IMG/VR virus record: IMGVR_UViG_3300024329_000060 | Location: 1-23,953 of that record | Direction: 5' to 3' (one strand) | From: a virus | DNA: 23,953 nt | In this document: one piece after another, positions 5,655 to 23,953 of the stretch | Layout of the letters: the number at the start of each line of letters is the position of its first letter | How positions within the stretch are numbered: position 1 is the first letter of the stretch | Position numbers and translations under genes: made by a program | Notes under the pieces: model-generated | What the model was told of the DNA's origin: nothing | Seen by the model: the letters and a program-made list of their open reading frames with translations, nothing else | Databases searched by the model: none

Positions 5655-6952
5655 TGGCAGTAACAGTTTCAGACCAAGATAGATCATTACTTAGACTAAT
5701 CGCCGACGGTGAAGCAGTTAGATCAAATCCGTATTGTAGTGTATGGCCCGGTTCTGTAGAACGTTCACTCACTTCTATGACATTGTCTCAAGTTGAAGAT
5801 TATCAAAAGAATAGAATTGCCGCAGGAAGAAAATCTAGTGCTGTAGGAAAATATCAATTTATAAAATCTACTCTAAAAGAATGTGTTGGATACTTAGGAT
5901 GTGATCCTCTAAGAACAGTGTTTTCACCAGACGTGCAAGACGCACTTATTATTAAAAGATTAGAAAAGTTTAGAAGATATAACGAATGGAAAAGCGGAGC
6001 ATTAGATAGCGGAAAATTTATGATTTTTTTATCTGCTGAATTCGCAAGTATGCCTGTACCTTACGATATTGCAGCAGGAAGTGTATACAAAGGATTGCCA
6101 AAAAGAAATTTAAAAAAAGGACAAAGCTTTTATGCAGGTGATGGGCTTAATAAAGCAAATCATAATCCTGATAGTGTATATCAAGCACTTGAAGATATTC
6201 GTAACGGCGGCACCGGAGAAATAGTCACTATAGACGTTTCTACAACCGGCGCAAATAGAGCCATGCCTGCAAGTGGAATTGGTGAAAAAGCTCAAGTTGA
6301 AAAAGCATCTGCAGGATCGGCCACAGGTGCCTATCGAGGTACAAGGGCAGGTTCTGCACCTTTACCTGCAACAACACTTCCAAACCCAGAAAATCCTTAC
6401 ATTTATTATCAAATAGATCCATTAGATGATAGATATGACTTTCGTACTGGAGAAAAAGTTAAAGATATATTAATTCATGGCATTAGTGCAGCAGCATCTT
6501 CTCCTGTAGAAGTAGTAACTGGGGGCGAAACAAACAGCACAACAAATGCAGGGGTTATTGCACCAGTGCCACCAGCGCCAGATCCAGAATCAGCAAATCC
6601 AACAGGTCAAGAAGTATTACCAGACTTAGTACCAAAAGAAGTCCCAAGTCCGTTGCCATTAGACGATCTGCCTAACGTTGACAAAATTGCTCCTGGTCTT
6701 CCGTATCCAGACGATATAATAGATGATGCGCTAAACAGTATTAAAAAATTATTTCCTGAGGATCCTGGAGACTGTGTAAATACACCAGTTACCCGCACTA
6801 GTGGCTTTCAAGATGCTTTCGATGATGCCACAGGTGCTTACAGTGACGTTGTGGGTGGATTGAAAGATGCTGCTGAAACTGCCTTAACTGAAACTAAAAC
6901 TGCTATTACTAATACTGCAAAACAATGGATAAAGACTAATGGCCCGCAATGA
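5654..6952 (+). CDS. Baseplate-associated muramidase (lambda R-type lysozyme domain with Pro-rich tail)
   Basis: The protein has 432 residues. Residues about 8-185 resemble the phage lambda R lytic transglycosylase: LLRLIADGEAVRSNPY places a likely catalytic Glu at E20, and KSSAVGKYQFIKSTL (about 60-74) matches lambda's KSTGAGRYQLL. A segment on QDALIIKRLE follows, as in lambda's QDAVALQQIKE. The enzyme would cleave the N-acetylmuramic acid to N-acetylglucosamine bond. From about residue 230 the chain becomes Ala/Thr/Pro-rich (PVPPAPDPESANP, VPKEVPSPLPLDDLP), then ends in a helix of about 50 residues. There is no signal peptide or membrane segment, and the gene lies inside the baseplate block, so it is more likely a virion enzyme than a free endolysin. 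AAGGA (5641-5645) precedes the start. Its end overlaps gp5 by 14 bases, suggesting coupled synthesis with the spike. Confidence 0.8.
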   Translation: MAVTVSDQDRSLLRLIADGEAVRSNPYCSVWPGSVERSLTSMTLSQVEDYQKNRIAAGRKSSAVGKYQFIKSTLKECVGYLGCDPLRTVFSPDVQDALIIKRLEKFRRYNEWKSGALDSGKFMIFLSAEFASMPVPYDIAAGSVYKGLPKRNLKKGQSFYAGDGLNKANHNPDSVYQALEDIRNGGTGEIVTIDVSTTGANRAMPASGIGEKAQVEKASAGSATGAYRGTRAGSAPLPATTLPNPENPYIYYQIDPLDDRYDFRTGEKVKDILIHGISAAASSPVEVVTGGETNSTTNAGVIAPVPPAPDPESANPTGQEVLPDLVPKEVPSPLPLDDLPNVDKIAPGLPYPDDIIDDALNSIKKLFPEDPGDCVNTPVTRTSGFQDAFDDATGAYSDVVGGLKDAAETALTETKTAITNTAKQWIKTNGPQ

Positions 6953-9677
6953 ACCACCTAGAAAAGGAACTACTTATACAAGGTCAACGCGAGAGTTGCC
7001 ACCTATTAAAGCGGGTGTACCTTACGAAGCTGTTATAGTAAACAACTTAGATGTAAACAGTATGGGTACTTTAGAGGTAGAGCTTTTAAATTATACCTCT
7101 GCAGGAAACTTACCAGAAAAAAGTGGACAACTCGAAACAGTAAAATATCTTAGTCCTTTTTACGGAGTTACACCAGGCAACGGATTAACCCAAAATGACG
7201 GTTATGAATATACTCAAAAAAGTTATGGAATTTGGGCAGTACCACCTGATGTTGGTACTAAAGTACTAGTTATTTTTGCAGAAGGTAATAAAAACTTTGG
7301 TTACTGGATAGGGTGTATTCAAGATGATTACATGAACTTTATGTTGCCTGATGGCCGCGCCGCCACCACCCTAACAACGGATATTACTCCTGAACATCTT
7401 AAAGGTAGCAAACTTCCTGTTGGTGAATATAACAAAATGGTTGAAACTGGCGAAAAAGTTGATCCTACCTTATTTAATAAACCTTATAATAAAGATTTTG
7501 CCCAGATATTAGAAATACAGGGTCTACTACAAGACGAAGCCCGAGGAACTACAACATCAAGTGCTAGACGTGATTTCCCTAGCATGGTGTTCGGATGGAG
7601 TACACCTGGACCTAAGGATAAAAGAACTAAATCTCCAAAATTTGAAATTGGTCCTGACGGTAAAAAAGTAGAACTGCCATACAACAGACTAGGCGGTTCT
7701 AGCATAGTTATGGATGACGGTGATGAACGTTTTGTAAGAGAAACCCATGCAGAAGACGGTCCGCCCAAATACGTTAATAAAGGTGCTAATTTCCCCGGCG
7801 GCGACGAAACAATACTTCAAAACGAATTATTTAGAATAAGAACTAGAACCGGGCATCAAATACTTCTACATAATTCAGAAGATTTGATTTATATTTCTAA
7901 CAGTAGAGGTACTGCTTGGATAGAGATGTCTAGTGATGGTAAGATTGATATACATGCACAAGATAGTATAAGCGTAATGAGCAATCAAGATATTAATTTT
8001 ACTGCTGAAAGAGATTTTAATATCGATGCCGGTCGTAACATAAACATGAGAGCACAGGCAAGATATAGTGATGGTCAAAAAACAATGGACGGCCTAGACT
8101 GTGGTAGAATACAAATAGAATCAAAATATGATACAAATATTTTAGTAGGCGACGAATATAAAAGAAATGTTCTTGGAACAAGTCAAGTTAAAATAGATGC
8201 TGATAGTTTTATTACAGTTGCAGCCAATCAACAAACTACAGCTGGTACTATTTATGACACATCTAAAGGCGGATTCCATCAAAAATCTGCACATACTTTC
8301 TATAGAGAAAGTGGAAGCAATATTAACGACTTATCAGCAGGGGTCTACTTAAACAAAGGCTCAGAAATAAATTTACACTCAACAGGAAATACAAAAATAC
8401 TTTCGGTTGGAAATCATGAAACTGTTACTCAAGGTGAACACTTACTAAAAGTAATCGGTGCAAGTACTGTGCAGGCAGATACTCAACACTACGAAGCTGT
8501 TAATGGAATCAATATGTTAGGCGGAACTGCAATTGCAGGAGATGCAGCTAAAATTTCTTGGAATACGCAAAAATCTGTTGCAGGAACTGAGGCTTCGACT
8601 GCACTAAGTGCAACACCTGCAACTTCAGCAAAGCCTGCAGAACCAATTATACCATTACCGCAAATTGTGTTACCGTATATATTTGCAGGAGCACAAGATA
8701 CTGTGCCGTATGAAAGTATACTCACTAGAGCTCCACAACACGAGCCGTGGCAGCACCACGAAAATTTAAATCCGCAAGCATTTAAACCAGAACAAACTGA
8801 TAGGGAATCGTCAGGACAACTATCACCAGCAGATAGAATACTTACACCAGACACATTTACAAAGTCTAAATCTAATGTCCAACAAAGTTCGCAGATTTTA
8901 GGTTCTAGCGGGAATGACAATTATGGAACACACGGTGATTCTCAAATTGTATTAGGTGATGTTGAACAACCAGAAAATGTCCCCGGAGCAGATGAAATTA
9001 GATCACTAGCAAACTTCACACTTGATAAAGAAAGATCAACAGATAACTGGGCTAACAGATTCTTTATAGGTGACGGACCGTTGGGCACAATAACTACTAA
9101 AAAGAGAGGCATAACAGCCGAAGTTGCAGAAGTTTGGGTTCCTAATTTCCAAGGCTTTATTGATGCTTTAGAAGATAGCGGATATGAAATTAAGGTATTA
9201 CTTGGGTATTGTAAACGTAATATCGGACGTTCTACTAGATGGAGTACTCATGCCTCGGGCGCTGCAATAGATATCAATCCACCAAATCCTGTTAAAAATA
9301 CATTTCCGAACGGATGGTATCAAAGTCGCCCAGCAAATGCGCCTATGACTGATATGCCTGAAGGCACCGGCGAGTTAGCCAAATCATTTGGTCTTGGTTG
9401 GGGCGGTGCATGGACAAGCTCAGACGATGCTATGCATTTTAGTACAGCAGCAAACGAAGGCGGCAATTATAGATTTGTACCAGGTATAATACCCCAAGGT
9501 CCGTCAACTGACAGTGAGATTACAGAATCAGGAGATCCTAGAGGAAAAGATTATTATATTGCTCCATCTAAAGAAATTACCGAGGCAGAAACCCAAGAAT
9601 CTCCTATAGAACCAGAAAATACAAATAATCCAGGTCCACAAAATGCTGACGGTACTGTAAATACTGGACCGCAATAA
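6939..9677 (+). CDS. 5: Baseplate central spike gp5 with C-terminal M15 peptidase domain
   Basis: The protein has 912 residues. An OB-fold region (about 27-137) ends in PPDVGTKVLVIFAEGNKNFG and YWIGC, as in gp5/VgrG-like spikes. The stretch GHQILLHNSEDLIYIS (305-320) with WIEMSSDGKIDIHAQDSISV (327-346) leads into short beta repeats forming the needle (about 327-530). The T4 lysozyme domain normally found between these parts is absent. After a Pro/Ala/Ser linker, residues about 690-845 form a peptidase M15 (VanY/L-Ala-D-Glu type) domain: S-T-H771-A-S-G-A-A-I-D778, then GWGGAW and D830-A-M-H833-F. Zinc ligands H771, D778 and H833 with D830 as the base keep the spacing known in M15C enzymes. The spike would pierce the outer membrane and cut wall peptides. 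The ATG overlaps the muramidase end by 14 bases, and no strong ribosome-binding site is visible, which fits translational coupling. Confidence 0.92.
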   Translation: MARNEPPRKGTTYTRSTRELPPIKAGVPYEAVIVNNLDVNSMGTLEVELLNYTSAGNLPEKSGQLETVKYLSPFYGVTPGNGLTQNDGYEYTQKSYGIWAVPPDVGTKVLVIFAEGNKNFGYWIGCIQDDYMNFMLPDGRAATTLTTDITPEHLKGSKLPVGEYNKMVETGEKVDPTLFNKPYNKDFAQILEIQGLLQDEARGTTTSSARRDFPSMVFGWSTPGPKDKRTKSPKFEIGPDGKKVELPYNRLGGSSIVMDDGDERFVRETHAEDGPPKYVNKGANFPGGDETILQNELFRIRTRTGHQILLHNSEDLIYISNSRGTAWIEMSSDGKIDIHAQDSISVMSNQDINFTAERDFNIDAGRNINMRAQARYSDGQKTMDGLDCGRIQIESKYDTNILVGDEYKRNVLGTSQVKIDADSFITVAANQQTTAGTIYDTSKGGFHQKSAHTFYRESGSNINDLSAGVYLNKGSEINLHSTGNTKILSVGNHETVTQGEHLLKVIGASTVQADTQHYEAVNGINMLGGTAIAGDAAKISWNTQKSVAGTEASTALSATPATSAKPAEPIIPLPQIVLPYIFAGAQDTVPYESILTRAPQHEPWQHHENLNPQAFKPEQTDRESSGQLSPADRILTPDTFTKSKSNVQQSSQILGSSGNDNYGTHGDSQIVLGDVEQPENVPGADEIRSLANFTLDKERSTDNWANRFFIGDGPLGTITTKKRGITAEVAEVWVPNFQGFIDALEDSGYEIKVLLGYCKRNIGRSTRWSTHASGAAIDINPPNPVKNTFPNGWYQSRPANAPMTDMPEGTGELAKSFGLGWGGAWTSSDDAMHFSTAANEGGNYRFVPGIIPQGPSTDSEITESGDPRGKDYYIAPSKEITEAETQESPIEPENTNNPGPQNADGTVNTGPQ

Positions 9678-9692
9678 TAAGGTAAATATAGT

Positions 9693-10130
9693 ATGAGCGA
9701 ACTTGAACAAAATATTTACAAAAGGCTACAAGTATCTAGTACAAGTATCCAACCAAAACCTTCTAGGGCTTATAGAGGATTTTATTCAGGCAATCCTTCA
9801 AACGGGTTTAACTTGTATGATCACGAATTAATTAAACAAGATATAATAAATCATTTTCATATAAGACAAGGAGAAAAAATAGGAGATCCTGGGTTTGGAT
9901 GTATAATTTGGGATATCTTGTTCGAGCCATTTACGCCTGCACTTCAGGCAGCAATCATTGAAAATGTTACTTTTATAATAAACTATGATCCTAGAGTACA
10001 GGCTGAAAATGTTATTGTAGATAGTCAAGATAGTGGTATACAAATTACTGCTACAGTAAAATTCTTAGACTATGCTATAAGTGAAAGTATGCGTTTTACG
10101 TTTGATAAATCCGTGGGTCTTGGTTTATAA
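9693..10130 (+). CDS. 25: Baseplate wedge protein gp25
   Basis: This 145-residue protein is a gp25/IraD-like wedge subunit. The hallmark segment is RQGEKIGDPGFGCIIWDILF followed by EPFT (about 59-81), equivalent to T4's conserved GxR...PxFGxxxWxILFEP, including the conserved Glu-Pro pair. The C-terminal half is an alternating beta pattern (NVIVDSQDSGIQITATVKF). In T4, gp25 with gp53 and gp6 forms the wedge core that docks on the hub and starts sheath assembly. Length is normal for the family. A TAAGGT site (9678-9683) precedes the ATG; the gap from gp5 is only 15 bases. A non-coding gap of 57 bases with a late promoter follows. Confidence 0.94.
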   Translation: MSELEQNIYKRLQVSSTSIQPKPSRAYRGFYSGNPSNGFNLYDHELIKQDIINHFHIRQGEKIGDPGFGCIIWDILFEPFTPALQAAIIENVTFIINYDPRVQAENVIVDSQDSGIQITATVKFLDYAISESMRFTFDKSVGLGL

Positions 10131-10187: not shown

Positions 10188-13100
10188 ATGTCTTCAAGTG
10201 ATAGACAGACTAGGCTCTTAGTAGCCGAAGACTGGAAAAGAATATATCAAGGTTTTAGGAACGCAGACTTTCAAAGTTATGATTTTGATAATCTTCGCAG
10301 ATCCATGATTAACTACCTGCGTCAAAATTATCCAGAAGATTTTAATGATTATATTGAATCTTCAGAATACCTTGCGCTGATTGACATGATTGCTTTCCTT
10401 GGGCAAAACTTATCCTTCCGTGTTGATTTAAATGCACGTGAAAACTTCCTCGAAACAGCAGAACGCAGAGAAAGTGTACTACGTCTTGCACGTATGCTTT
10501 CATATAATCCAAAACGTAATCAAGCTGCAAACGGGCTTATGAAAATTACAACAGTAAAAACTACTGAAACTCTTTTTGATAGTGCTGGATTAAATTTATC
10601 TAATAATGTAATAAAGTGGAATGACACTTCTAACACTAACTATGTTGAGCAATTTACAAAAATTTTAAATGCTGCACTGCCAGTAAATAATTCTATAGGT
10701 AATCCTTTAAAAAATGCAAATATTGAAGGAATACAAACGCAAAAATATAGATTTAATGCAACAAATACTGACACAGCAATTTTTCCGTTTACAAAAAATA
10801 TTGAAGGAAATAGTGTTAGATTTGAAGTAGTAAGTGCAGATATATCAAATACAACTATAAAAGAAGAATCACCGTTACCCGGAACGTCACCTGCATTTTT
10901 ATATAGGGACGACGGCCAAGGAGCAGGAAGTTCTAATTCTGGATTCTTTATGCACGTTAGACAAGGCGCATTACAAACAGGTAATTTTAGCGTAAAAAAT
11001 CCTGTTCCTAATCAAGTAGTGTCGATTGATGCAAGTAATATTAATAACACAGATGTATGGTTATACAATGTAGATACTAATGGATTTGAAACAACTTCTT
11101 GGACACAATTAACTTCTACTGAAGGTAACAACATAATATATAACAGTCTCTTTAACCAAGTAAGAAATATATTTTCTGTAGAAAGTAGAATTGGCGATAG
11201 AATTAACTTAGTGTTCAGTGATGGTGTATTTGGTAATTTACCTGCTGGGAACTTTAAAATATATTATAGAACAAGTATTAATAAATCATTAGCAGTTACG
11301 CCGGGACAAATAGGTAATATTAATATTGCAATTCCTTATCAAAGTAAATCAGGAAGCCAAGAAACTATTACTTTAGGACTTAGACTCCCTTTCAGTATAA
11401 CTAACGGCACTGGCGCCGAAACAAACGCAGAAATCAAAGCAAATGCACCTGCATCTTATTATACACAGAATAGACTTATAACAGGCGAAGATTATAATAT
11501 AGGACCGCTGTCTGTAAGCCAAGAAATTATTAAAACAAAAAGTGTAAACAGAATTTCAAGTGGAATAAGTAGATACTTAGATATAAAAGACCCAAGCGGA
11601 AAATACAGTACTACAAAACTGTTTGCAGACGACGGTGTTATTTACAAAGAATTATATGAAACAAAACAAGATTTTAATTTTTCAAGCCAAAGTGATATAG
11701 AGGGCATAATAGTTAACACACTACAAAATGTAATTAGATCTTCAGGTGTAAAAAACTATTATATAAGTCAATTTTCAGATATCTCAGTCTTAGACTTAGG
11801 AGCTTCGTGGAACAGTTATCAATCTACAACTAATTCTAATTTAGGTACATTAGAAGACATTGACGGAAATAAGATCAAGGTTGGCGCTTTTACAGCTAAC
11901 AATTTAAAAACAGCTAAAAGAGGAACTATGCTGAAATTTACACCACCGGCAGGTTTCCATTTTATGAAAAATAATGAACATGGGTTAATGCAAGGTGCAG
12001 CAGACCATCCTAATGCTGTTGAATACAAATGGACTCAAATTTCAAATGTTGTAGATGATGGTACATCTATAGATGCAGAAACTAATACTGGCGGAATCAC
12101 ACTTACTGATTTTATTCCTACAGGAGCTATATTGACAGAAATTGTACCTACGTTTAGTACATTTTTCTCAAACGATTTAAAAACACAAATTATAGATCAG
12201 GCATTTGCTTATAAAGATTTTGCTTTAAGATATGACAGAAGTGAGTCTGTATGGAAATTAATTCTTGCTGAAAATATTAATACTATTAGTAGTTTTTCTC
12301 TAGGTAAAGCAGGAGATATTACAGGCCAGAATTTAGATACAAGTTGGCTTTTGTATTTTAAAACCGACGGAGAAAAATATACACTTACTACAAGAAATTT
12401 AAGATATATTTTTGAAAGCGAAGACGAAATAAGATTTTTCTTTGATAGTGCTGATAAAATTTATGATCCTAAAACTGGTAAAATAATTCGTGATACAATT
12501 AAGATTTTAGATATTAATACTAAACCTCAAACCAACATTCCGTTTACAACGAGTTTTGATTGGAACATTAGCGGAGCATACAGAGATAAAGAGGGTTATG
12601 TTGACTCAAGAAAAATACAAATTGAGTTTTTTGATTTAGACAATGACGGAGTTATTGATGATCCAGACCTGTTTAATCAAATTGTAGAACCTAATACTGA
12701 TCCTCAATCTAAATTAATATTTTTAAAACGCTATGTAACTACAGACGGCGTAGAAGAATATAGATATTATGATAATTCTGACAATACTATACAAGTAAAA
12801 ACAAATGAAAAAGCAATAGGTGCATACAGTCAATATGATAATCCTACGCAAATATTTTATCTTTTCGAAGAAAAGATATTTAAACAACTAAATGCTAATT
12901 TGAATAATTTAACCGTAATAACAGACTATAAAGCATATACAGGTAGAAATAACTTAAGATTTAGTTATAGACATGTTGCAGATAGCAATTACAGAATAGA
13001 CCCTGCGGTAAGCAATATTATTGATACGTATTTGTTAACTAAAAATTATGACACAAATATTAGACAATTTTTAAATGGTAATTTGAAATCTTTACCATTG

Positions 13101-13790
13101 CCGCAAAGTAATGATGAATTATTTAGAAATTATGGTGGTGATATATCAAAAATAAAATCTATCACAGACGAAGTAATATATCATCCTGTAAAATATAAAA
13201 TATTGTTCGGCAAAAAAGCAAAAGAAGATCTACAAGTGATATTCAAGATAGTTAGAAATAAAGATGTAGTTGTAAATGACAACGAACTTAAAGCAGACGT
13301 AGTAAACAGTATAGATAGATTTTTTGCAATTGAAAATTGGGATTTTGGAGAAACATTTTATTTCCAAGAACTTGCTGCTTACATAATAAATCAACTTACA
13401 CCTAAATTAGTAAGTATTGTTGTAGTCCCTAGACAAGGTAGTCAAAGTTTTGGAAGTTTGTTTGAAATAAGATCTGAACCTGATGAAATTTTCATTAGCG
13501 GAGCAAATGTATCAGACATAGAGATTATTCAAGAGCATACTGCATCTCAATTACAAGCAGCAGGAAATGTATTAACAAACTTTAATAATGCAACTTCTCA
13601 AATTTCTAGCGCATCTGCTGTATCAAATATTTCTAGTTCAACAAGTTCAACAAGTACAAATAGTAACAGTCCAAGCAGTTTAGGTAGCTCAAGCAGCTCA
13701 AGCAGCTCGGGTAGTTCAAGTAGCTCGAGCAGTTCGAGCAGTTCAGGTAGTTCAAGCAGTGGTTCTTCAGGCGGAGGTTATAGTTACTAA
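10188..13790 (+). CDS. 6: Baseplate wedge protein gp6 (extended, 1200 aa)
   Basis: The N-terminal part (EDWKRIYQGF, YLALIDMIAFLGQNLSFRVD, NARENFLETAERRESVLRLA) and the central NAPASYYTQNRLITGEDYN (about 418-436) are hallmarks of gp6/gpJ wedge proteins. T4 gp6 has about 660 residues; this one is nearly twice that length, with extra beta-rich material after about residue 480. Dimers of gp6 form the inner ring that ties the six wedges together and reshapes on sheath contraction. Residues 816-827 form a canonical EF-hand-type loop (DLDNDGVIDDPD). The last 65 residues are mostly Ser with some Gly, encoded in part by a 9-bp tandem repeat, and end GGGYSY. The gene has its own late promoter and an AAGGA site (10176-10180). 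Its stop overlaps the next start (TAATG). Confidence 0.93.
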   Translation: MSSSDRQTRLLVAEDWKRIYQGFRNADFQSYDFDNLRRSMINYLRQNYPEDFNDYIESSEYLALIDMIAFLGQNLSFRVDLNARENFLETAERRESVLRLARMLSYNPKRNQAANGLMKITTVKTTETLFDSAGLNLSNNVIKWNDTSNTNYVEQFTKILNAALPVNNSIGNPLKNANIEGIQTQKYRFNATNTDTAIFPFTKNIEGNSVRFEVVSADISNTTIKEESPLPGTSPAFLYRDDGQGAGSSNSGFFMHVRQGALQTGNFSVKNPVPNQVVSIDASNINNTDVWLYNVDTNGFETTSWTQLTSTEGNNIIYNSLFNQVRNIFSVESRIGDRINLVFSDGVFGNLPAGNFKIYYRTSINKSLAVTPGQIGNINIAIPYQSKSGSQETITLGLRLPFSITNGTGAETNAEIKANAPASYYTQNRLITGEDYNIGPLSVSQEIIKTKSVNRISSGISRYLDIKDPSGKYSTTKLFADDGVIYKELYETKQDFNFSSQSDIEGIIVNTLQNVIRSSGVKNYYISQFSDISVLDLGASWNSYQSTTNSNLGTLEDIDGNKIKVGAFTANNLKTAKRGTMLKFTPPAGFHFMKNNEHGLMQGAADHPNAVEYKWTQISNVVDDGTSIDAETNTGGITLTDFIPTGAILTEIVPTFSTFFSNDLKTQIIDQAFAYKDFALRYDRSESVWKLILAENINTISSFSLGKAGDITGQNLDTSWLLYFKTDGEKYTLTTRNLRYIFESEDEIRFFFDSADKIYDPKTGKIIRDTIKILDINTKPQTNIPFTTSFDWNISGAYRDKEGYVDSRKIQIEFFDLDNDGVIDDPDLFNQIVEPNTDPQSKLIFLKRYVTTDGVEEYRYYDNSDNTIQVKTNEKAIGAYSQYDNPTQIFYLFEEKIFKQLNANLNNLTVITDYKAYTGRNNLRFSYRHVADSNYRIDPAVSNIIDTYLLTKNYDTNIRQFLNGNLKSLPLPQSNDELFRNYGGDISKIKSITDEVIYHPVKYKILFGKKAKEDLQVIFKIVRNKDVVVNDNELKADVVNSIDRFFAIENWDFGETFYFQELAAYIINQLTPKLVSIVVVPRQGSQSFGSLFEIRSEPDEIFISGANVSDIEIIQEHTASQLQAAGNVLTNFNNATSQISSASAVSNISSSTSSTSTNSNSPSSLGSSSSSSSSGSSSSSSSSSSSGSSSSGSSGGGYSY
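12633..12668 (+). other. EF-hand-type calcium-binding loop within gp6
   Basis: Residues 816-827 read D-L-D-N-D-G-V-I-D-D-P-D. Acidic residues at loop positions 1, 3, 5, 9 and 12, Gly at 6 and Ile at 8 match the canonical 12-residue calcium loop, except for Asp instead of Glu at 12. It is flanked by beta-like rather than clearly helical sequence, so a dockerin-like or isolated loop is more likely than a full EF hand. Calcium binding is inferred from the motif. Confidence 0.6.
13686..13757 (+). repeat. 6: Eight tandem 9-bp units coding Ser-Ser-Ser/Gly in the gp6 C-terminus
   Basis: Eight consecutive in-frame 9-base units fit the pattern AGY-TCR-RGY: two AGCTCAAGC copies, then AGCTCGGGT, AGTTCAAGT, AGCTCGAGC, AGTTCGAGC, AGTTCAGGT and AGTTCAAGC. 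They encode Ser-Ser-(Ser/Gly). Two related units, AGTTCAACA, occur upstream at 13635-13652. The third-base changes preserve Ser, so the tract looks expanded by slippage or recombination and then maintained at protein level. Confidence 0.88.
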
Positions 13791-16700
13791 TGGCATATGA
13801 TGATAATCAAAATGAGAGTGCCCTTCCTACACCTAATAATAATAGTAAAAAATCTATAGATTTTTTACCAAAGTTTTTTAGGACGGAAGCAAATAGAAAA
13901 TTCCTTCAAGGAACATTAGATCAACTAATTTCAGACGGAACTGCGGAAAAGGTTGACGGCTATGTTGGTAGAAAATTTACAAAGGGATATAGTTTATCAG
14001 ATAACTATATTCCAGAAATTAATAAACAAAGAGAAGACTATCAATTAGAACCTTCTGTAACGCTAAGAGATAATTTAGAAAATATTGACTTTGTAAAAGA
14101 TTACAAAGATTATATAAACACGTTAAAATATTTTGGATCAGATGTTTCTAATCATGATAAACTTAACACAGTAAATTCATACAGTTGGAATCCACACATT
14201 GATTTTGATAAATTTACCAATTTCCGCGAATATTATTGGCTACCAACTGGTCCGTTAAGTGTTCCTTTAAAAGGACAAGCAAGAGAAATTACTAGCACTT
14301 ACGCTGTTACACTCGAAGATCAAGGCGATAATATTGCATATGTATTTAATGATGGATTCACAAGAAATCCAACACTCAAGTTATACAGAGGACAAACTTA
14401 TCGTTTTGATATAGATACCCCGGGTCATCCAATTGCATTTTCTATAAGTAGAACATTTATACCCGGGCTTGCATTACTTGTAGCAGGAAAAGAAGGAGTA
14501 AGATCGTCTGGATTATTTGATGCAGAGCTATACGGCAATGAATATGATATCGGCGATTTTGTAGTTACTCCTGATGCCGGAAGTGTAAGTTTCGAAGCAG
14601 ACGAAAATGTATCTACTTTATATAATGACGGTATTAGTAAGTTTAACGATGCCGGCGACGAAATTGCAGTAGTATACATTGAAAAAGGCACAATAGAATT
14701 TACTATACCGACAAATGCTCCTAACAGACTATTTTATATTAGTCAAAATGATATCAATACAAGTGGACAAATTAGAATCTATGATGTAGAAGAAAATACG
14801 TTTTTAAACATTAAAAATGATATCTTAGGAAAAAAATATTACACTAGTTCAAACGGTATAGAATTAACTAATGGATTAAAAGTAGAATTTCCAGGCACAG
14901 TTATACCTGAAAAATATAGTACAGGTAAATGGTATGTAGAAGGCGTTGGTTCAGCAATAACACTAATTTCTGAATCTGATCTTACTATTCCGTCGACATA
15001 CACAGATAATATACAAACACCGTTTGATACTGAGGCATTTGATACAATGCCATTCTCTACAGCTAATAATTTTCCGCTACAAAAAGATTACTTGCTTATT
15101 AATAGAGCTGCACAAGACAAAAATCCATGGTCAAGAAATAACAGATGGTTCCATAAACAAGTTGTATTACAGAGCTTTGAGTATAATGGCTTACCTGAAA
15201 ACTTAGATGACAATTTTAGAGCAAAGCGTCCTATAATAGAATTTGAAGCAGGACTAAAATTATTTAATAATGGAACTTTTGCAAAAGCAGACGTAGACCT
15301 TGTAGACGATTTTACTACAGATGTCTTTAGTACTATTCAAGGACAACTAGGTTATATTATCGACTCAGTAGAAATTGCTGAAGGTATGAGAATTTTGTTC
15401 ACTAAAGACAACGATGTATTAGTGAGCGGAAAAATATTTGAGGTTAATTTTGTAACTATCGGTCAAGATAGAATTATAAATCTTATTGAAGTCGCAGATT
15501 CACTCCCGCTTGATTTAGAAACTGTATTTGTTAAAAATGGAAACAAATACTCAGGAAAAACACTACATTATCATAATTTAAATTGGACACTAGCACAAGA
15601 CAAAACATCATTAAATCAAGCACCGCTGTTTGATTTATGTTGCCCTGAAGGCACTGCATACAGTGATAATTCGGTATTTGAAAGTTCTAATTTTTATGGT
15701 ACTAAGATATTTTCATATAAACTAGGAGAAGGAATAACCGATACTGAATTAGGATTTCCTTTAGCATATAGAAATATCAGCAATGCCGGCGATATATTAT
15801 TTGAATTTAACTTATTAACCGATAATTTTTCTTACCAAGAAAATGATGAATTGATATCTATAAATGTTGCTACAGCTAATCTTAGGAAGTATAAAAATAG
15901 AGATACATTTGAATATGTAAATGGATGGAATTCAACACCGTCTAGATTTAAACAATATGTTATAAAAAATATTGTTGTTGATAGCAATAATACAAATAAT
16001 TTTAAAATAGATGTATACAATAAACCGCATCTTTTAGAAGATTTAAAAGTACACGTATATGTCAATAATACGTTACAATTTAAAAATAAAAATTATATTA
16101 TTACAAAAAGCCGAAATTCAGTTATTATCAACTTTGTACAGGACTTGGCAGTTGATGATATATTAGAAATCAAAACACATAGTCAAGAAGCAAAAAATCA
16201 AAACGGATATTACGAACTTCCAATTTCTTTAGAAAGAAATCCGTTAAACGAAGATGTAACAGAATTTACCTTAGGAGAAGTATATGATCATGTAGACAGC
16301 ATGATTGAAGATATACAAACTTTTGAAGGAGTTTATCCGGGCAACAGTAATCTTAGAGACGCAGGCAAAATTAATCAGTTTGGAAAAAGATTTGTTAAGC
16401 ACGAAGCTGGTTTAGTTAATGCAATTTATCAGATAACAAATAAGAAATATAATCTACTTAAAGCAGTAGAATATTCTAATAAAGAATATGCAAAATTCAA
16501 AAAAATATTCATTGATACAGCTACTAATTTAGGTTATGACGGAACAACTAATAAGCATGTTGATAGAATTTTAAAAGATATTAATAACGATAAATCTAAG
16601 TCGCAACCATTTTACTTTAGTGACATGTTAGGGTATGGTAATGGTAATCGTATAGAATATAATGTAATCGACAAAGAAATTAATATTTTTCCTCTTACCC

Positions 16701-19700
16701 AAAGTTTTAAATTATCTGACTTTACGCCACAGTCGTTAATTGCATACATTAACGGAACAATGTTAGTACATGGAAGAGATTATAATTTTAATACAGACGG
16801 GTTTATTGAAATTACTGCTGACAAGGAAAATGGCGATACTATAGAGATATACGAATATAACAGTACTGATGGATCTTTTATTGCACCAACACCGTCTAAA
16901 TTAGGACTTTACCCTACTTGGAACCCTGAAATTGTTTTAGATGATACCGGAAGCGAGAGCGTAGATATACTGATTTCAGGACCGTTTAAGGTATACGGCG
17001 AAGTTGACACAGGTGAAAAGAAAAATCTTCATGGGTGGTTTCATCCTGTATTTACGTCTAAAAATTCTGCACAGCAAAGTGATATTGCAGAAGGCGGCAC
17101 AGGTAACGTAAACAGTATTTGGTTTAAAGGGTTAACAACGCAATTTTATGTGCCTAAAACAAACAGCACACTTGCAGGAAATGATAATTTAAATATTGAA
17201 TTATACCCAATTGGTATACCTGTTATTAAAGGACATGACGGCAGTCAAGTTGCTTGTTACAAAGATTTTAGAGACGGTTTATTATTAGATTTAGAAAAGC
17301 GTATCTTCAATAATATTAAAATAAACTATGATGATAATGAATTTGATTTGTATAATTTTACAGGCGGCGCATTTAGAGGATTTAAAAACAACATAGACTC
17401 TATTAATAGTATATTACTGACTGATTTTATAACCTGGCAATCATCGTTAAAAGGTGACTATTCTGACAACAGTTTTTATGATAGGAATAACGGATTTACA
17501 TTCAATTATAAAAGTTCAAATGGAATAAATGGATCGCAGATACCTGGTTTTTGGAGAGGCATATATAAACAAGCATTTGATACAGACCAACCACATTCTC
17601 ATCCATGGGAAATGTTAGGCCTCCAAAAGAAACCTACGTGGTGGAATACAGTTTATGGGCCAGCACCTTATACAAGCAATAACTTATTATTATGGGAAGA
17701 TCTTGAAAAAGGTAAAATTGCAGATCCTAATAATACAAGAATTGATAAAAGATTTGCACGACCTGGCTTAACAACTTTTATTCCAGTTGATAAAATTGGA
17801 AAATTAGTTCCGCCAGTAAAGACTAACTATATCGAAGGGTTCATCCAGCGGTTTGCAGATTCAGCATTTGAATTTGGCGATTATTCCCCAATAGAAAGTT
17901 CATGGCGTAAAAGTTCAGAATATCCATTCTCTATCTTAAAATCTATGTTACTATTAAATCCTGCTGAAACTATAGGCAAGGGCTTTGATTTATCTAGATC
18001 TACAAAAAACTTAGCAGGCCAGTATGTTTACAAAGATACGCAAAACAGTATAAAAAATACAGATATTATTTTCCCTAATACCTACGCAGATGATCAAAGA
18101 AATATTACTTGTGGTTTAATTAATTTTACATATAATCTTGTAGCAAGCGACATACTAAAAGTATATACAGATTATCAAAACGAAATTCAAAATTTACAAG
18201 TAAATTTATCATTTAGGTTAGGAAGTTTTTCAGATAAAAATAAACTTAATTTTGTTTTAGAAAGTAAAACTCCTAACAGAGATATTGGATCTAGTGGCAT
18301 TTTCATCCCCCAAGAAAATTATAACTTAGTGTACAATGTAAGTTCACCTATAGATAATTTTATATATAGCGGCGTAATTATAGAAAAAACATCTAGCGGA
18401 TTTAAGATAAGCGGATATAACCAAAAAAATTCTTACTTTAATTATTATTCACCTTTGTTTGGATCAACAAATTTTATTGTGACTGTAGGAGGTATAAGTG
18501 AAGAATATTCAAATTGGAGTGGTCTAACACCGTATAAAAAAGATCAAATTGTTTTTCAATTAAACACATATTACAGAGTAACACAAGATTTTACAAGTAG
18601 TGAACTATTTGATACAGAATTTTTAGCTAAGTTGCCTGCTTTACCTTCTATTGGCGGTCGAGCAGCTGAATTTTATAAAACTTTTGATACTATCAATACA
18701 AAAAAACTTGCATATGGAACTATTCTTGGAAATATACAGGAAGTTGTTAGCTTTTTATTAGGATATGGAAAATATTTAGAAACCCAAGGATTTACTTTTG
18801 ATGATGTTACCGATGAAGTTGTAAATGACTGGTCGTCTGTTACAAAAGAATTTATGTTTTGGACTACACAAGGATGGTCAAACGGAACAGTTATAAGTGT
18901 TAGCCCTAGTGCAAACCAATTAGTATTCCAACAAGACTTTGCCGTAGTAGATGATGTATTTGACAGTTTCTATGATACATCAATAGTTTCTAGCAATGGC
19001 CAATTATTGGATAGAAATTTTAATAGTATTCTACGAGATCAAAATAATTTTGGCATTGTAATTAAAGATACGGACCTCGGACTATACGGTGCTGCATTAC
19101 CAATTGTTCAAAAAGAACATGTTGTTGTTTTTGATAATAATACAATTTTTAATGATGTGATATATCATCCTGCATCTGGTTATAGACAAGAAAGAATTAA
19201 ATTAAACGGTTATAAAGCTGCTGAATGGAACGGCAGTTTAAATATACCTGGATTTATTTACGATAATGCTGTTGTCAAAGAATTTGAAAATTATCAAGAT
19301 TATAAAATAGGTGATTTAATTAAGTATAAAGAATATTATTATGTTGCAAAACAAAATGTTGTTGGCAGTGCAACTCTTGACTATAATCAATGGTATTTGT
19401 TAAATTCGAAACCAGTACCTGATTTAGTGAGTAATTTTGATTACAGAGTTGCACAATTTAATGATTTCTATGAAGTAAACACTGCTAGTTTTGATGATAC
19501 GTTACATGACCTTTCTGCTAGATTAATTGGCTTCCAGAAAAGAAACTATCTAAGTAACTTAATAGTAGATGATGTAAGTCAATTAAAATTCTACAAAGGG
19601 TTTATTCAAGAAAAGGGAACAAAGAATTCTCTAAGTAAACTTTTTGAGCCACTAAGTGCTCAAGGAGAAGAAAGTCTAGAATTTTTTGAAGAATGGGCTG

Positions 19701-22700
19701 TACGAAGTGGGGTGTACGGTGCTTCTGAAAAAGTAAAACAAATAGAAATACCACTGACTGATACTAAGATGATCGAAAGCCCGCAACCGGTCCTATTTAC
19801 AGATAATTTGCCAGCAGACAATTTTGATAACATATATAGAGTTTTGCCATCAGATCTTTTAGACAAACCGTTAGATTATACTAGTAATGTATTTCCTAGA
19901 TTACAGGACACAGCTGAATTTATTAAATCTTCTGGTTATGTTGATGAAAAGGACATCGATTTTGAAGCGGCAAGCGTAGACGATTTAGCTTTAGGAAACG
20001 TTAATGTATTTAAGTTAGGCGGATACTTACATTTAACTAATCAAGATAATAACGATTGGACAGTATATCAACATGTCGAAACAGGGTTAAATGCTACACA
20101 GTTGACAGAAGCAGATATATTAGATAGTCAAGGTAGATTAATTTTTGAATTACAATTAGATACTTGGGTAGGAGATAGTCTACAAATTGGAGAAATGATT
20201 GCTGTTCGAGGAGCAGATGAATATAGCTTTAACGGATTTTATAAAATTATCGATATAAGTCTAAATAAAATAGCTATCAAGATTCCACTTAGCAATGACA
20301 TAAATGGTTTTATAAATGAAAGCTTAATAGTTACAAAATTACGTAAAGTAAGAATTCAAAATGCTAGCGAAGCAAATACAACAGTAGATCAGAATATATA
20401 TGAAAACCAGAAGTTATGGATAGACAATATAGATTCAAATTGGCAAGTTATACAGAATCAAAAAGTATACTCTTTTTTACATCAGTATGATAATCCTAGC
20501 GACTGGGACAGCACACAACAAAAATTTACAGATTCAATGGCAGCAACAGACGATAATCGAAATGTTTTTGTATCGTCTGCAGGCGATGACAGCGGCAAGG
20601 TCTTTATATACAAAAGGTCAAATGAAAATGCAAACTTGCAATTACAACAAGTTTTATCATTTGACGAAATATCAGATTGGAAACCATTTACGGAATATAG
20701 AAACGGTGCAAGAATAAGATACGATGACAAATATTATCTACTTAATTTGACATTACAGCCCGATGAACGCTATACTAGTGAAGAAACTTTTAATAGTTTT
20801 AAATGGACAGAAATTGATTCTCCTAATGGCTATATGGATTACTTCGATCAATATGGAGCAAGCATTGATGTAAGCAGCGACGGTGAATATTTAGTAATCG
20901 GAGTTCCAAATGCATCTGGCGTAAAAACAAAATATCTAGGCGACTTTAATCCTGATGTAGAATATTTAAAACATGATGTTGTAAAATTTAGAGAAACTTT
21001 TTGGCAAGCAAATTTAACTGTGTTCCCTCAGATAGGAACACAGCCATTTTCTACTTTTGATAGCTATATCGATTTAACATCAAGAGATGATACAGATAGT
21101 ACTAATTTACAGCTCTTAGTTTCGGGTAAATTTGGATTACCAACAGGAAATATAGACCATATATTAGTACGTGCTCCTTTAGACATGTATATAGGAACAA
21201 AAGGTCAAATTGGTGATCAACCTGGCGACAAAGTTAGTTTAGCATGGAACTCAGTAAGCTATGCATATCCTACACTCGATGAATATTTGCCTTTTGATAA
21301 CCAGATATCAGAAATTACACCCGAATTTTTAAATCAAGAACACGAAATTATAGAAAAAATAGATTCGATTCTTTTTGTAGAAACATATGTTAGTTTACCC
21401 ACAGTAGGTCAAATCGTAGAAACTGATACAGGATCGGGAGAAGTTTTTTACGTAGCAAGTTATAGAGATAGTGCTGTAATATATTTGAAAAACATTAATG
21501 GTATTATAGATATTACTGGAGAAATATTTGATCTTAACAATGGTAACTTTATAGGTTTTTATTCTCAAGAATCAACTTATGCAACTACGCCATCTGTAGG
21601 AGGATTTTGGTACATCAACACAGCTGAGTTTGATCAACAAGGAAATCTAATATCTGGTTTCACTTATGCAAACAATGGCAGATACCTAGATATAGGTAGG
21701 GGATTAGTGTATGCAGATACTAGACCTAGCAGCAATGACGATGTAACTAGACCTTTTGTATATTATAATATACAAAGCACAGTAAGTGATATAGGTAATT
21801 TTGTTCTTAATAAAAATCGTGTTAGTTTTCTAACAAATTTAAGTTATAGAGGTGATATTGCCGACGAAGAAAGCAACTTATGGGCAGTACGAGTCGGAAA
21901 ATCTTATAGTGATTTATTAGATAACATAGGAGCATTAGTAGGTCCGGGCAATGAAAATAACAAAACTTTAAAATTAAAGTTTAATGAAACACAAGCTTTT
22001 ATAGATGATGTTAATTCAAAAGGTTATAACATTAATGAATTAAATAATGAAAATAAACTGTATGATATTTGGGACGGGTATATAGATTTTGAATTTACAG
22101 AATTTGATTTTGTCGGTGAGCCATTTGAACCTGTTGTAGGAGATGTTATACAAGATGTACAATTTCCTAGAGACGGCCAAGGCGGACTTGCTCTTACTAG
22201 TAAAAGTACTAGTACAGCTCAAATTGTTAGCTACAGAAAACAATTTAATTCAGTCCGAGTTTATTTAAAAGTACTTTCCGGTTCATGGACACAGCTAAAC
22301 AACATTGGTAAATTCCAAATACGAAGATTAGCAAATGAAGCAATCAGAGGCTCCGGCGATGTCGATCGTGTAATGGGTACTGTAGAGGATGTAGACAACA
22401 GTATAATACTAGGAACTGACAAAGTAGGAAAATTAATAGTATTTGAAAAAAATAGTCAAGACCCTACTGATGTGTTTATAGCAGTAGACAATGCAGAGAT
22501 TTTAGAATCAGAATATTACTTCTTTGATGAAACTATAGAAGGCGGCATTAATAGATTATCTAATGCACCTAACAGTCTAAATAAAGATTGGTCTCAAGTG
22601 TATAATATCCCAGCAAATATTAGAGGAACTTCTAGCGGATTGTCTAACGAAGGTGCTGTAATTATCTATAGACGACAGCCTAATGGCCTATATGAATTTG

Positions 22701-23953
22701 ACTACGTTTTAACAAGTCAGTATAAGCAAAATGAAAGAAATTTTGGCGATCAAGTTAAAATTAGAAAATTTGGGAATACCTACCATCTATTAGTTGGATC
22801 TAAAGGAGATTTAAATTCTTCTACAAGATTTGATCCAGGTAGTATAGAAGTTTTTACTCATGGCCCGACCGATAATGATAGATTTAAAGGGGAGTACCAG
22901 TCTACTGTATACCAACGAGGTGATATTGTTCTATATAAAGACAACTTTTATGTTGCAAATAAAGATACAGACGAAGGTATACAATTAAATATTCTAGATT
23001 CTGTTGTTTGGAACAATATTAGTTGGAAGTATGGTGTCGACGAAAACTATAGAGGAAACTGGGATAACACATATGGTTATGCAATAGGATCTATAGTCTT
23101 ATATAATAATATGTTCTATGCAGCTAAAACAAATATTGCAGCAGGAACAGAGTTTACTGAAAATCTATGGGAACAAATTTCTAGTAGTATAGATTATCTA
23201 GGATACTTGCCTAACTTAACAGGTAATAATTTATTAGGTGAAGATGTTTTTGACCCAAATGAAAATATAATTGAATTTAGTAAAAGCTTTGATGTAAGTA
23301 AAAACGGAGAAATATTAGTTGTTACTGCACTGCTAGAATCTACAGATAGTACGTCAAATAAAAAAATAGCAATTTATAGGAAAGAAGATAGTAAGTATAA
23401 ACTTTACGAAACTATTTCAGCGCCACTAAGTGGGTTTGAATTACAGGATCATGATTTAGATAAATTTGAAACAGATGTAGACGGCAATTGGGTCTATAGG
23501 GATACAGCTGGCGAAATTGCTACTCCGTCAACGGGTACAAGAACGTTAAATCCAAATGCTACTCCTGATGTTTTTGTAGATAAAACAAACTGGGCACATA
23601 AAGTAGCTATTAGTCCTGATGGTACACGGATAGTTATTAGTGTACTAAATGATAATACTAGAAAATATAAACAAGGACTAGTTTTAGTATACACTCAAAA
23701 TAATGGATCTTTTACATCACAAGAACCACAATTTTTATATAGCCCACAAGGGGAAATTGCAGAAAACTTTGGCTACGAAATTGGGTTTACTGATGAAACT
23801 TTATTAATTACAAGCTTAAATGGCGATCAAAAGATCCCAACTAGATTCGACACATATGAAAATAGACTAACGGGTTATTTACTAGATACAAATTCAGAAG
23901 AAAGAACCGAAACTACATTCGACCTAGGATTTACCGAATTTAGAAATGTTGGC
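13790..23953 (+). CDS. Giant virion structural protein in the gp7 position, partial (at least 3388 codons)
   Basis: The frame opens at ATG 13790, overlapping the gp6 stop by one base, and stays open to the last base of the window. A GGAGG motif (13773-13777) inside the Gly codons of gp6 is the likely ribosome-binding site, though 12 bases away is long. T4 gp7, expected here by synteny, has only 1032 residues. The N-terminal region includes a split cupredoxin-like domain (about 193-321). Middle parts contain two related beta segments (VYVNNTLQ near 756 and AYINGTML near 985), a helical stretch (about 815-925) and aromatic-rich segments such as HSHPWEMLGLQKKPTWWN. From about residue 1576, six short CBM5/12-like aromatic modules appear, and from about 2248 FG-GAP/propeller-like repeats (VSSDGEYLVIGVPNASG, AISPDGTRIVISV). 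No signal peptide or transmembrane segment was seen. A large baseplate-peripheral or host-recognition protein is inferred; no established name is claimed. Confidence 0.85.
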   Translation, partial: MAYDDNQNESALPTPNNNSKKSIDFLPKFFRTEANRKFLQGTLDQLISDGTAEKVDGYVGRKFTKGYSLSDNYIPEINKQREDYQLEPSVTLRDNLENIDFVKDYKDYINTLKYFGSDVSNHDKLNTVNSYSWNPHIDFDKFTNFREYYWLPTGPLSVPLKGQAREITSTYAVTLEDQGDNIAYVFNDGFTRNPTLKLYRGQTYRFDIDTPGHPIAFSISRTFIPGLALLVAGKEGVRSSGLFDAELYGNEYDIGDFVVTPDAGSVSFEADENVSTLYNDGISKFNDAGDEIAVVYIEKGTIEFTIPTNAPNRLFYISQNDINTSGQIRIYDVEENTFLNIKNDILGKKYYTSSNGIELTNGLKVEFPGTVIPEKYSTGKWYVEGVGSAITLISESDLTIPSTYTDNIQTPFDTEAFDTMPFSTANNFPLQKDYLLINRAAQDKNPWSRNNRWFHKQVVLQSFEYNGLPENLDDNFRAKRPIIEFEAGLKLFNNGTFAKADVDLVDDFTTDVFSTIQGQLGYIIDSVEIAEGMRILFTKDNDVLVSGKIFEVNFVTIGQDRIINLIEVADSLPLDLETVFVKNGNKYSGKTLHYHNLNWTLAQDKTSLNQAPLFDLCCPEGTAYSDNSVFESSNFYGTKIFSYKLGEGITDTELGFPLAYRNISNAGDILFEFNLLTDNFSYQENDELISINVATANLRKYKNRDTFEYVNGWNSTPSRFKQYVIKNIVVDSNNTNNFKIDVYNKPHLLEDLKVHVYVNNTLQFKNKNYIITKSRNSVIINFVQDLAVDDILEIKTHSQEAKNQNGYYELPISLERNPLNEDVTEFTLGEVYDHVDSMIEDIQTFEGVYPGNSNLRDAGKINQFGKRFVKHEAGLVNAIYQITNKKYNLLKAVEYSNKEYAKFKKIFIDTATNLGYDGTTNKHVDRILKDINNDKSKSQPFYFSDMLGYGNGNRIEYNVIDKEINIFPLTQSFKLSDFTPQSLIAYINGTMLVHGRDYNFNTDGFIEITADKENGDTIEIYEYNSTDGSFIAPTPSKLGLYPTWNPEIVLDDTGSESVDILISGPFKVYGEVDTGEKKNLHGWFHPVFTSKNSAQQSDIAEGGTGNVNSIWFKGLTTQFYVPKTNSTLAGNDNLNIELYPIGIPVIKGHDGSQVACYKDFRDGLLLDLEKRIFNNIKINYDDNEFDLYNFTGGAFRGFKNNIDSINSILLTDFITWQSSLKGDYSDNSFYDRNNGFTFNYKSSNGINGSQIPGFWRGIYKQAFDTDQPHSHPWEMLGLQKKPTWWNTVYGPAPYTSNNLLLWEDLEKGKIADPNNTRIDKRFARPGLTTFIPVDKIGKLVPPVKTNYIEGFIQRFADSAFEFGDYSPIESSWRKSSEYPFSILKSMLLLNPAETIGKGFDLSRSTKNLAGQYVYKDTQNSIKNTDIIFPNTYADDQRNITCGLINFTYNLVASDILKVYTDYQNEIQNLQVNLSFRLGSFSDKNKLNFVLESKTPNRDIGSSGIFIPQENYNLVYNVSSPIDNFIYSGVIIEKTSSGFKISGYNQKNSYFNYYSPLFGSTNFIVTVGGISEEYSNWSGLTPYKKDQIVFQLNTYYRVTQDFTSSELFDTEFLAKLPALPSIGGRAAEFYKTFDTINTKKLAYGTILGNIQEVVSFLLGYGKYLETQGFTFDDVTDEVVNDWSSVTKEFMFWTTQGWSNGTVISVSPSANQLVFQQDFAVVDDVFDSFYDTSIVSSNGQLLDRNFNSILRDQNNFGIVIKDTDLGLYGAALPIVQKEHVVVFDNNTIFNDVIYHPASGYRQERIKLNGYKAAEWNGSLNIPGFIYDNAVVKEFENYQDYKIGDLIKYKEYYYVAKQNVVGSATLDYNQWYLLNSKPVPDLVSNFDYRVAQFNDFYEVNTASFDDTLHDLSARLIGFQKRNYLSNLIVDDVSQLKFYKGFIQEKGTKNSLSKLFEPLSAQGEESLEFFEEWAVRSGVYGASEKVKQIEIPLTDTKMIESPQPVLFTDNLPADNFDNIYRVLPSDLLDKPLDYTSNVFPRLQDTAEFIKSSGYVDEKDIDFEAASVDDLALGNVNVFKLGGYLHLTNQDNNDWTVYQHVETGLNATQLTEADILDSQGRLIFELQLDTWVGDSLQIGEMIAVRGADEYSFNGFYKIIDISLNKIAIKIPLSNDINGFINESLIVTKLRKVRIQNASEANTTVDQNIYENQKLWIDNIDSNWQVIQNQKVYSFLHQYDNPSDWDSTQQKFTDSMAATDDNRNVFVSSAGDDSGKVFIYKRSNENANLQLQQVLSFDEISDWKPFTEYRNGARIRYDDKYYLLNLTLQPDERYTSEETFNSFKWTEIDSPNGYMDYFDQYGASIDVSSDGEYLVIGVPNASGVKTKYLGDFNPDVEYLKHDVVKFRETFWQANLTVFPQIGTQPFSTFDSYIDLTSRDDTDSTNLQLLVSGKFGLPTGNIDHILVRAPLDMYIGTKGQIGDQPGDKVSLAWNSVSYAYPTLDEYLPFDNQISEITPEFLNQEHEIIEKIDSILFVETYVSLPTVGQIVETDTGSGEVFYVASYRDSAVIYLKNINGIIDITGEIFDLNNGNFIGFYSQESTYATTPSVGGFWYINTAEFDQQGNLISGFTYANNGRYLDIGRGLVYADTRPSSNDDVTRPFVYYNIQSTVSDIGNFVLNKNRVSFLTNLSYRGDIADEESNLWAVRVGKSYSDLLDNIGALVGPGNENNKTLKLKFNETQAFIDDVNSKGYNINELNNENKLYDIWDGYIDFEFTEFDFVGEPFEPVVGDVIQDVQFPRDGQGGLALTSKSTSTAQIVSYRKQFNSVRVYLKVLSGSWTQLNNIGKFQIRRLANEAIRGSGDVDRVMGTVEDVDNSIILGTDKVGKLIVFEKNSQDPTDVFIAVDNAEILESEYYFFDETIEGGINRLSNAPNSLNKDWSQVYNIPANIRGTSSGLSNEGAVIIYRRQPNGLYEFDYVLTSQYKQNERNFGDQVKIRKFGNTYHLLVGSKGDLNSSTRFDPGSIEVFTHGPTDNDRFKGEYQSTVYQRGDIVLYKDNFYVANKDTDEGIQLNILDSVVWNNISWKYGVDENYRGNWDNTYGYAIGSIVLYNNMFYAAKTNIAAGTEFTENLWEQISSSIDYLGYLPNLTGNNLLGEDVFDPNENIIEFSKSFDVSKNGEILVVTALLESTDSTSNKKIAIYRKEDSKYKLYETISAPLSGFELQDHDLDKFETDVDGNWVYRDTAGEIATPSTGTRTLNPNATPDVFVDKTNWAHKVAISPDGTRIVISVLNDNTRKYKQGLVLVYTQNNGSFTSQEPQFLYSPQGEIAENFGYEIGFTDETLLITSLNGDQKIPTRFDTYENRLTGYLLDTNSEERTETTFDLGFTEFRNVG
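14366..14752 (+). other. Split cupredoxin-like domain in the giant protein
   Basis: Residues 193-217 (NPTLKLYRGQTYRFDI then DTPGHPIAF) match the first half of plastocyanin-like domains seen in many marine proteins, and residues 300-316 (GTIEFTIPTNAPNRLFY) match the second half. About 80 residues are inserted between them. In relatives the second half continues Cys-x-x-His; here it reads ISQND, so the copper-ligand Cys and His are gone while H213 remains. A structural role is more likely than copper binding. Confidence 0.5.
18515..18634 (+). other. CBM5/12-like module A in the giant protein
   Basis: Residues 1576-1615: W1576, then TPYKKDQIVFQLNTYYRVTQ with Y1582, D1585, Y1594 and Y1595. This follows the pattern W...Y-x-x-G/K-D-x-V-x-(5)-Y-Y-x-V/A of small chitin/carbohydrate-binding modules, although the usual Gly before Asp is Lys and the closing Trp is absent. 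It is the weakest copy. Confidence 0.4.
19280..19408 (+). other. CBM5/12-like module B in the giant protein
   Basis: Residues 1831-1873: YQDYKIGDLIKYKEYYYVAK with Y1838, G1841-D1842, Y1846, Y1849-Y1851, and a closing W1868 (QWYLL). The Y-x-x-G-D-x-I-x-Y-x-x-x-Y-Y-x-A-K core and terminal Trp are characteristic of the CBM5/12 fold. Confidence 0.6.
20678..20815 (+). other. CBM5/12-like module C in the giant protein
   Basis: Residues 2297-2342: W2297, FTEYRNGARIRYDDKYYLLN (Y2303, G2306, Y2311, Y2315-Y2316), and a closing W2339 (FKWTEI). It lies between two propeller-like segments. Confidence 0.58.
20939..21070 (+). other. CBM5/12-like module D in the giant protein
   Basis: Residues 2384-2427: VEYLKHDVVKFRETFWQANL with Y2392, H2395-D2396, F2400 and F2404-W2405. 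It follows directly after a propeller-like strand set (EYLVIGVPNASG), as if inserted into a loop. The closing Trp is not obvious. Confidence 0.5.
22889..23026 (+). other. CBM5/12-like module E in the giant protein
   Basis: Residues 3034-3079: VYQRGDIVLYKDNFYVANKD with Y3041, G3044-D3045, Y3049, F3053-Y3054, and a closing W3074 (VVWNNI). This is the clearest copy of the module, complete from the opening strand to the closing Trp. Confidence 0.65.
23048..23179 (+). other. CBM5/12-like module F in the giant protein
   Basis: Residues 3087-3130: W3091, TYGYAIGSIVLYNNMFYAAK with Y3097, G3100, Y3105 and F3109-Y3110, and a closing W3127 (LWEQI). It follows module E with only seven residues between the two, forming a tandem pair. 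Confidence 0.62.

Follow-up and report, generated by a model that had tools for sequence, protein, structure and literature searches.

CBM5/12-superfamily modules in a giant phage baseplate protein with a predicted integrin-like propeller: candidates for docking

Introduction

What would a phage baseplate protein do with a series of small domains of the kind that is otherwise attached to chitinases? The question is raised by a virus record of 23,953 bases, analysed here over its whole length and referred to as the window, in which a giant open reading frame (ORF) within a baseplate gene cluster encodes six short, aromatic-rich segments. An initial annotation likened these segments to the CBM5/12 modules of bacterial chitinases, and proposed that their multiple display on a six-fold baseplate would give the virus strong avidity for surface glycans. 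The assignment to the CBM5/12 fold proves to be correct, and the function of the segments is probably different from sugar binding.

Genomic setting of the giant protein

The window contains a T4-like baseplate cluster, recognised by PHROG matches and by gene order. Ahead of the giant ORF, the cluster encodes hub or structural proteins, a wedge protein resembling gp53, a lysozyme-bearing hub of the gp5 type, a gp25-like wedge protein (9693..10130, + strand) and, immediately upstream, a gp6-like wedge protein (10188..13790, + strand). The giant ORF itself (13790..23953, + strand), of which 3388 residues are seen before it is cut by the window end, matches phrog_10938 "virion structural protein". 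By the gene order of the window and the PHROG matches it is the gene directly after gp6, the place of the wedge protein T4 gp7/BW3, and the baseplate location first ascribed to the protein is borne out by this position behind gp25 and gp6. The full protein comprises 5,249 residues in the near-identical contigs L005 and L010 (99.8% identity). Profiles of its N-terminal ~560 residues and of residues ~1140-1560 retrieved neither a gp7 chain nor another known fold from the PDB, and the whole ORF, used as a single-sequence PDB query, gave no meaningful match. Jumbo phages such as Vibrio phage 2.275.O, Pseudomonas phages PA5oct and PAC2, and 121Q of E. coli encode named relatives of both the giant protein and gp6, with identities of 25-36%, and the window gp6 is also matched in cyanophages.

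Two features of the neighbouring genes may be recorded here. The gp6-like protein terminates in a long Ser/Gly low-complexity tail (13600-13790) that abuts the giant gene. Further upstream, positions 5654-9677 hold two adjacent ORFs with endolysin-like domains; one is of the lysozyme type, and the other is the gp5-like hub, whose C-terminal endolysin-like region resembles, as judged by eye, a D-Ala-D-Ala peptidase.

Six divergent copies of one module

Six divergent copies of a single module of ~45 residues are present in the giant ORF at the positions originally reported, all on the + strand. Module A spans 18506..18643 (residues 1573-1618), module B 19274..19408 (residues 1829-1873), module C 20666..20818 (residues 2293-2343) and module D 20930..21079 (residues 2381-2430), followed at a distance by module E at 22880..23023 (residues 3031-3078) and, in tandem with it, module F at 23045..23185 (residues 3086-3132). 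The module HMM found no further copies in the 5,249-residue version of L005 and L010.

The strict form of the motif matches the giant protein twice and its shuffles not at all, and a relaxed form matches five times against a mean of 0.005 over 200 local shuffles. The spacing that the initial annotation described fits two copies in its exact form. An opening Trp and a closing W-x-x-I had likewise been attributed to most copies, and each is found in three of the six, the former in A, C and F, with Phe or Tyr in the others, and the latter in C, E and F, with W-x-x-L in B.

Each window site was also scored with an HMM trained on the other five sites only, and this leave-site-out test returned 5.8 bits for A, 23.3 for B, 16.4 for C, 7.3 for D, 21.6 for E and 36.4 for F. 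Because the best shuffles in these runs reached 3.8-7.2 bits, this test taken by itself leaves A and D marginal. Module A is nevertheless secured by orthologues above the Pfam cut-off together with its predicted fold, and module D by its conservation among orthologues together with four predicted strands.

Homology to CBM5/12 and predicted fold

Together, modules E and F of the window match Pfam CBM_5_12 (PF02839) at 24.8 bits (2.2e-5), which is below the cut-off of 26.2; modules A-D alone gave no Pfam match, and no single window module reaches the cut-off. As Pfam was silent on A-D, relatives were brought in. Orthologous giant proteins score above the CBM_5_12 cut-off in seven of 15 records (27.7-31.5 bits), and the family is matched by 19 of the 26 members of the giant-protein module set.

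A profile built from 26 giant-protein modules was searched against the PDB, where its chitin-binding matches include a chitin oligosaccharide deacetylase (3wx7; 2e-9) and ChiA1 (1ed7; 4e-5), among others. The same profile has its top two matches in phage tail proteins, namely 9rkv (1e-13), which is a putative tail fibre, and the tail spike gp124 of Agrobacterium phage Milano (7e-12). Lower down, the profile matches residues 47-90 of 9x3r_M (8e-6), near the N-terminus of a long-tail-fibre proximal subunit of 1289 residues. The subunit is of the T4 type and has the length of T4 gp34, and its N-terminus is the baseplate end.

Structural models agree with these relationships. Residues 1500-2240 were modelled with AlphaFold2, and in this model module A fits the CBM of 3wx7 at 1.4 Å over 45 residues with a Z of 6.8, a value that, being below 8, is weak by itself and agrees with the profile match. 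Module B superposes on residues 74-118 of Milano gp124 (8fqc_P1) at 1.2 Å over 45 residues, with a Z of 8.2. Model confidence is moderate, with a mean pLDDT of 70 and 75 for the two models, and it is low at module C, which is poorly modelled; D, E and F have four predicted strands each. Foldseek returned no match with E <0.001 for the A/B region, the module match standing at rank 34, by high probability only, and appearing again in a second look. The structure list of that second look was otherwise dominated by a separate beta domain (window residues 2093-2187, ~20066-20350; residues 594-688 of model m439). The best matches of this domain are riboflavin-synthase-like and E1-enzyme beta barrels, at a Z of ~8 that is not decisive.

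It could be supposed that aromatic-rich beta hairpins unrelated to CBM5/12 had arrived at the motif by chance, and the low scores of A and D with models trained on other sites, along with the lack of any window module that exceeds the Pfam cut-off alone, would fit such a convergence. This explanation is already contradicted by the orthologues above the cut-off, by the profile matches to solved CBMs and by superpositions at 1.2-1.4 Å, and shuffles never came near the scores of B, C, E and F. Rejected by the shuffles and the leave-site-out models, it is scarcely credible. As judged from sequence and models, the modules are members of the CBM5/12 superfamily, and the resemblance first noticed in their pattern is borne out by the Pfam scores, above the cut-off in relatives and below it in the window, by the profile matches and by the structural comparisons. 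With CBM5/12 modules such as those of ChiA1 (1ED7) and 3WX7 they share the fold, a detectable sequence homology and the core aromatics, namely W/Y/F at the opening, the hairpin with Y..G.x.V and YY.A, and a closing W. Unlike them, they belong to a structural protein of the virion, where the others are attached to enzymes acting on glycans.

Fate of the ligand-binding residues

Although the core of the CBM5/12 fold is retained, the residues that serve ligand binding in the solved modules are not. At the position of ChiA1 W687, the exposed ligand Trp of the CBM12 type, all five solved CBM12-type controls have Trp (with the final residue of 1ed7 supplied as background), whereas Trp is found in only two of 60 giant-protein modules, in none of the six window modules and in none of 21 modules from the tail-fibre arrays described below. 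The residue is mostly replaced by Phe, in at least 32 of the 60 giant-protein modules; these counts are based on ungapped offsets, so that Phe is undercounted in modules with earlier insertions, such as D. Most phage copies are also shorter than CBM5/12 modules between the ligand-Trp position and the closing Trp. At site A the aromatic is conserved as a well-kept Phe, which may be a core, interface or platform residue. In CBM5, the surface aromatics Y282-W283 (CjCBM5) and Y296 bind chitin, and Y265 and W299 form part of the core (PMC8449059). The core aromatic positions are kept in the phage modules, and the WW/YW pair is present in none of the 81 examined.

These residues bear directly on the proposal that each module binds glycans weakly and that six-fold display on the baseplate confers avidity for polysaccharide, extracellular or on the host surface, through a site remodelled from that of CBM5/12. 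The homology to CBM5/12 is genuine, and the Phe conserved at the W687 position in many copies could mark such a site; by the same token, the frequency of this Phe and the aromatic kept at site A count against a pure docking role, since a modified glycan platform is possible. The loss of the CBM5 pair and the rarity of the CBM12 Trp point the other way, as does the attachment role of the closest relatives with a solved structure, and we regard glycan binding as possible but doubtful. The initial proposal is thus partly supported: the fold and the baseplate setting hold, and multivalent sugar binding faces evidence to the contrary, given that the ligand aromatics are not kept and that the solved phage relatives lie in tail-attachment regions.

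Docking modules in phage tails

Precedents for another use of this fold come from phage tails themselves. In Milano, the motifs 55-VPPGTP-60 and 100-RTDLPPGPFDPANWQ-115 contact the wedge proteins BW2 and BW3 (PMC10811340), and these contact motifs correspond to the stretch that holds the ligand Trp in CBM12. The head-binding subdomain D2 of CBA120 TSP1 has the ChiA1 chitin-binding fold, and polysaccharide binding is not reported for such domains (PMC3966878); set beside the window modules by its published description only, it likewise has a chitin-binding-domain fold that serves virion attachment. The modules of Milano gp124 (8FQC) and 9X3R are among the best PDB profile matches of the window's family and are arranged in tandem like E-F, and module B superposes on gp124 as described above. 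They differ in their location, which is N-terminal in a trimeric spike or fibre, whereas those of the window are inserted in a giant protein of the baseplate, with four of the six in its predicted propeller.

Related modules also occur in the tail genes of the relatives. The gp6 wedge protein of Vibrio phage 2.275.O (L074:15001-18864), annotated as CBM5/12, contains three CBM5/12-like modules, and the HMM that finds them detects none in the window gp6. The phrog_9851 tail-fibre ORFs of three relatives (L065, L066 and L067) begin with 7-8 CBM5/12-like modules in tandem, and several of these lie far above the Pfam cut-off, at up to 41 bits. The presence of these more canonical arrays in the same phages may also be cited for glycan avidity. 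Taken together, the tail-attachment relatives in Milano and CBA120, the gp6 modules and the fibre arrays favour docking, with glycan binding as its main rival. The explanation we favour, at about even odds, is that the six segments are CBM5/12-superfamily domains that serve for docking, like those employed inside phage tails. We infer that they would be knobs through which proteins of the tail contact each other. Modules A and B, the conserved pair, would pack within the baseplate itself, and the changeable modules of the propeller would receive or brace peripheral parts, for example the tail fibres with their own N-terminal arrays.

Gain and loss among relatives

Of the 25 relatives that were aligned, nearly all have A and B and most have D and F; E occurs in a single clade, and C is limited to the window and its nearest kin. 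The modules are therefore of mixed age, with A and B family-wide and C and E recent or lineage-specific. The initial annotation was right that the copies differ strongly from each other; its explanation, that they are old or differently selected, applies to a set in which only some members are family-wide. The giant proteins of PAC2 and 121Q are likewise encoded behind gp6 and are homologous to the window protein in their N-terminal and central parts, and differ from it in module number. The homologue in Pseudomonas phage vB_Pa-PAC2 (XAI93979.1), already annotated as "chitin-binding type-3 domain-containing protein", has one recognisable module at about site A, and that of E. coli phage 121Q (gp582) has no recognisable modules, compared with six in the window.

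This distribution also bears on whether the modules are inert spacers, that is, small stable beta domains that a large protein tolerates in its loops, spread by duplication and recombination between tail genes and lacking a dedicated ligand. Their strong divergence, the gain and loss at the sites and the 121Q homologue are all compatible with such an origin. The family-wide retention of A and B, which have near-invariant positions, argues otherwise, as does the module that the Pseudomonas jumbo phage homologue still has close to site A, and we consider inert spacers unlikely. The coming and going of C and E between close relatives, moreover, fits host-range adaptation as well as docking, and such high turnover speaks for glycan avidity.

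A predicted integrin-like propeller carrying modules C-F

Modules C-F are placed within a predicted integrin-alpha-like, seven-bladed FG-GAP beta-propeller (20522..23953, + strand; residues about 2245-3463), the last blade of which lies past the window and the blades of which were assigned by eye from sequence and model. Modelled residues 2250-3449 are nearest to integrin α subunits, with a Z of 30.4 and 3.2 Å over 327 residues for integrin alphaM. Pfam FG-GAP_2 is matched in 16 of 21 orthologues (best 1.3e-12), and the window sequence itself gives no match to it. According to this assignment, C would separate blade 1 from blade 2, D would occupy the loop that joins strands B and C of blade 2, and E-F would come after strand C of blade 3. 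Blade 2 further contains an insert of about 500 residues (21110..22639, + strand), which holds two copies of a duplicated beta domain (hhalign 97%, E 6e-11).

Seven blades are common to this propeller and that of integrin alpha. Unlike the latter, the phage propeller has loops filled by CBM5/12-like modules and the duplicated beta domain, and its context is a viral baseplate. FG-GAP propellers are present in other predicted viral proteins; an integrin-like propeller in a phage baseplate was not found in the literature searched. As far as that literature extends, it is new for CBM5/12-type modules to be inserted in a propeller of the integrin type within so large a baseplate protein. The kind of module is already known, homologues or neighbours carrying the labels "chitin-binding type-3" or "CBM5/12".

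The loops of a propeller are a usual place for ligand-binding inserts, and the position of C-F in them weighs against docking and in favour of glycan display, while the moderate confidence of the models, lowest at C, likewise tempers the docking interpretation. A more far-reaching proposal is that the baseplate bears an integrin-like adhesion head, in which modules derived from CBM5/12, each with a glycan site rebuilt around Phe, are acquired and lost in the propeller loops. This seems rather unlikely; were it true, not only the fibres but also the baseplate wedge itself would bind the host.

Implications for phage annotation

Automatic annotation labels such genes "chitin-binding" or "carbohydrate-binding module", and if the CBM5/12 fold is a general phage docking module, many of these labels would mislead as to the target of the virus. 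In the giant protein, whose insert sites vary between close relatives, it can be tested how a single fold may serve either as a sugar binder or as a structural joint.
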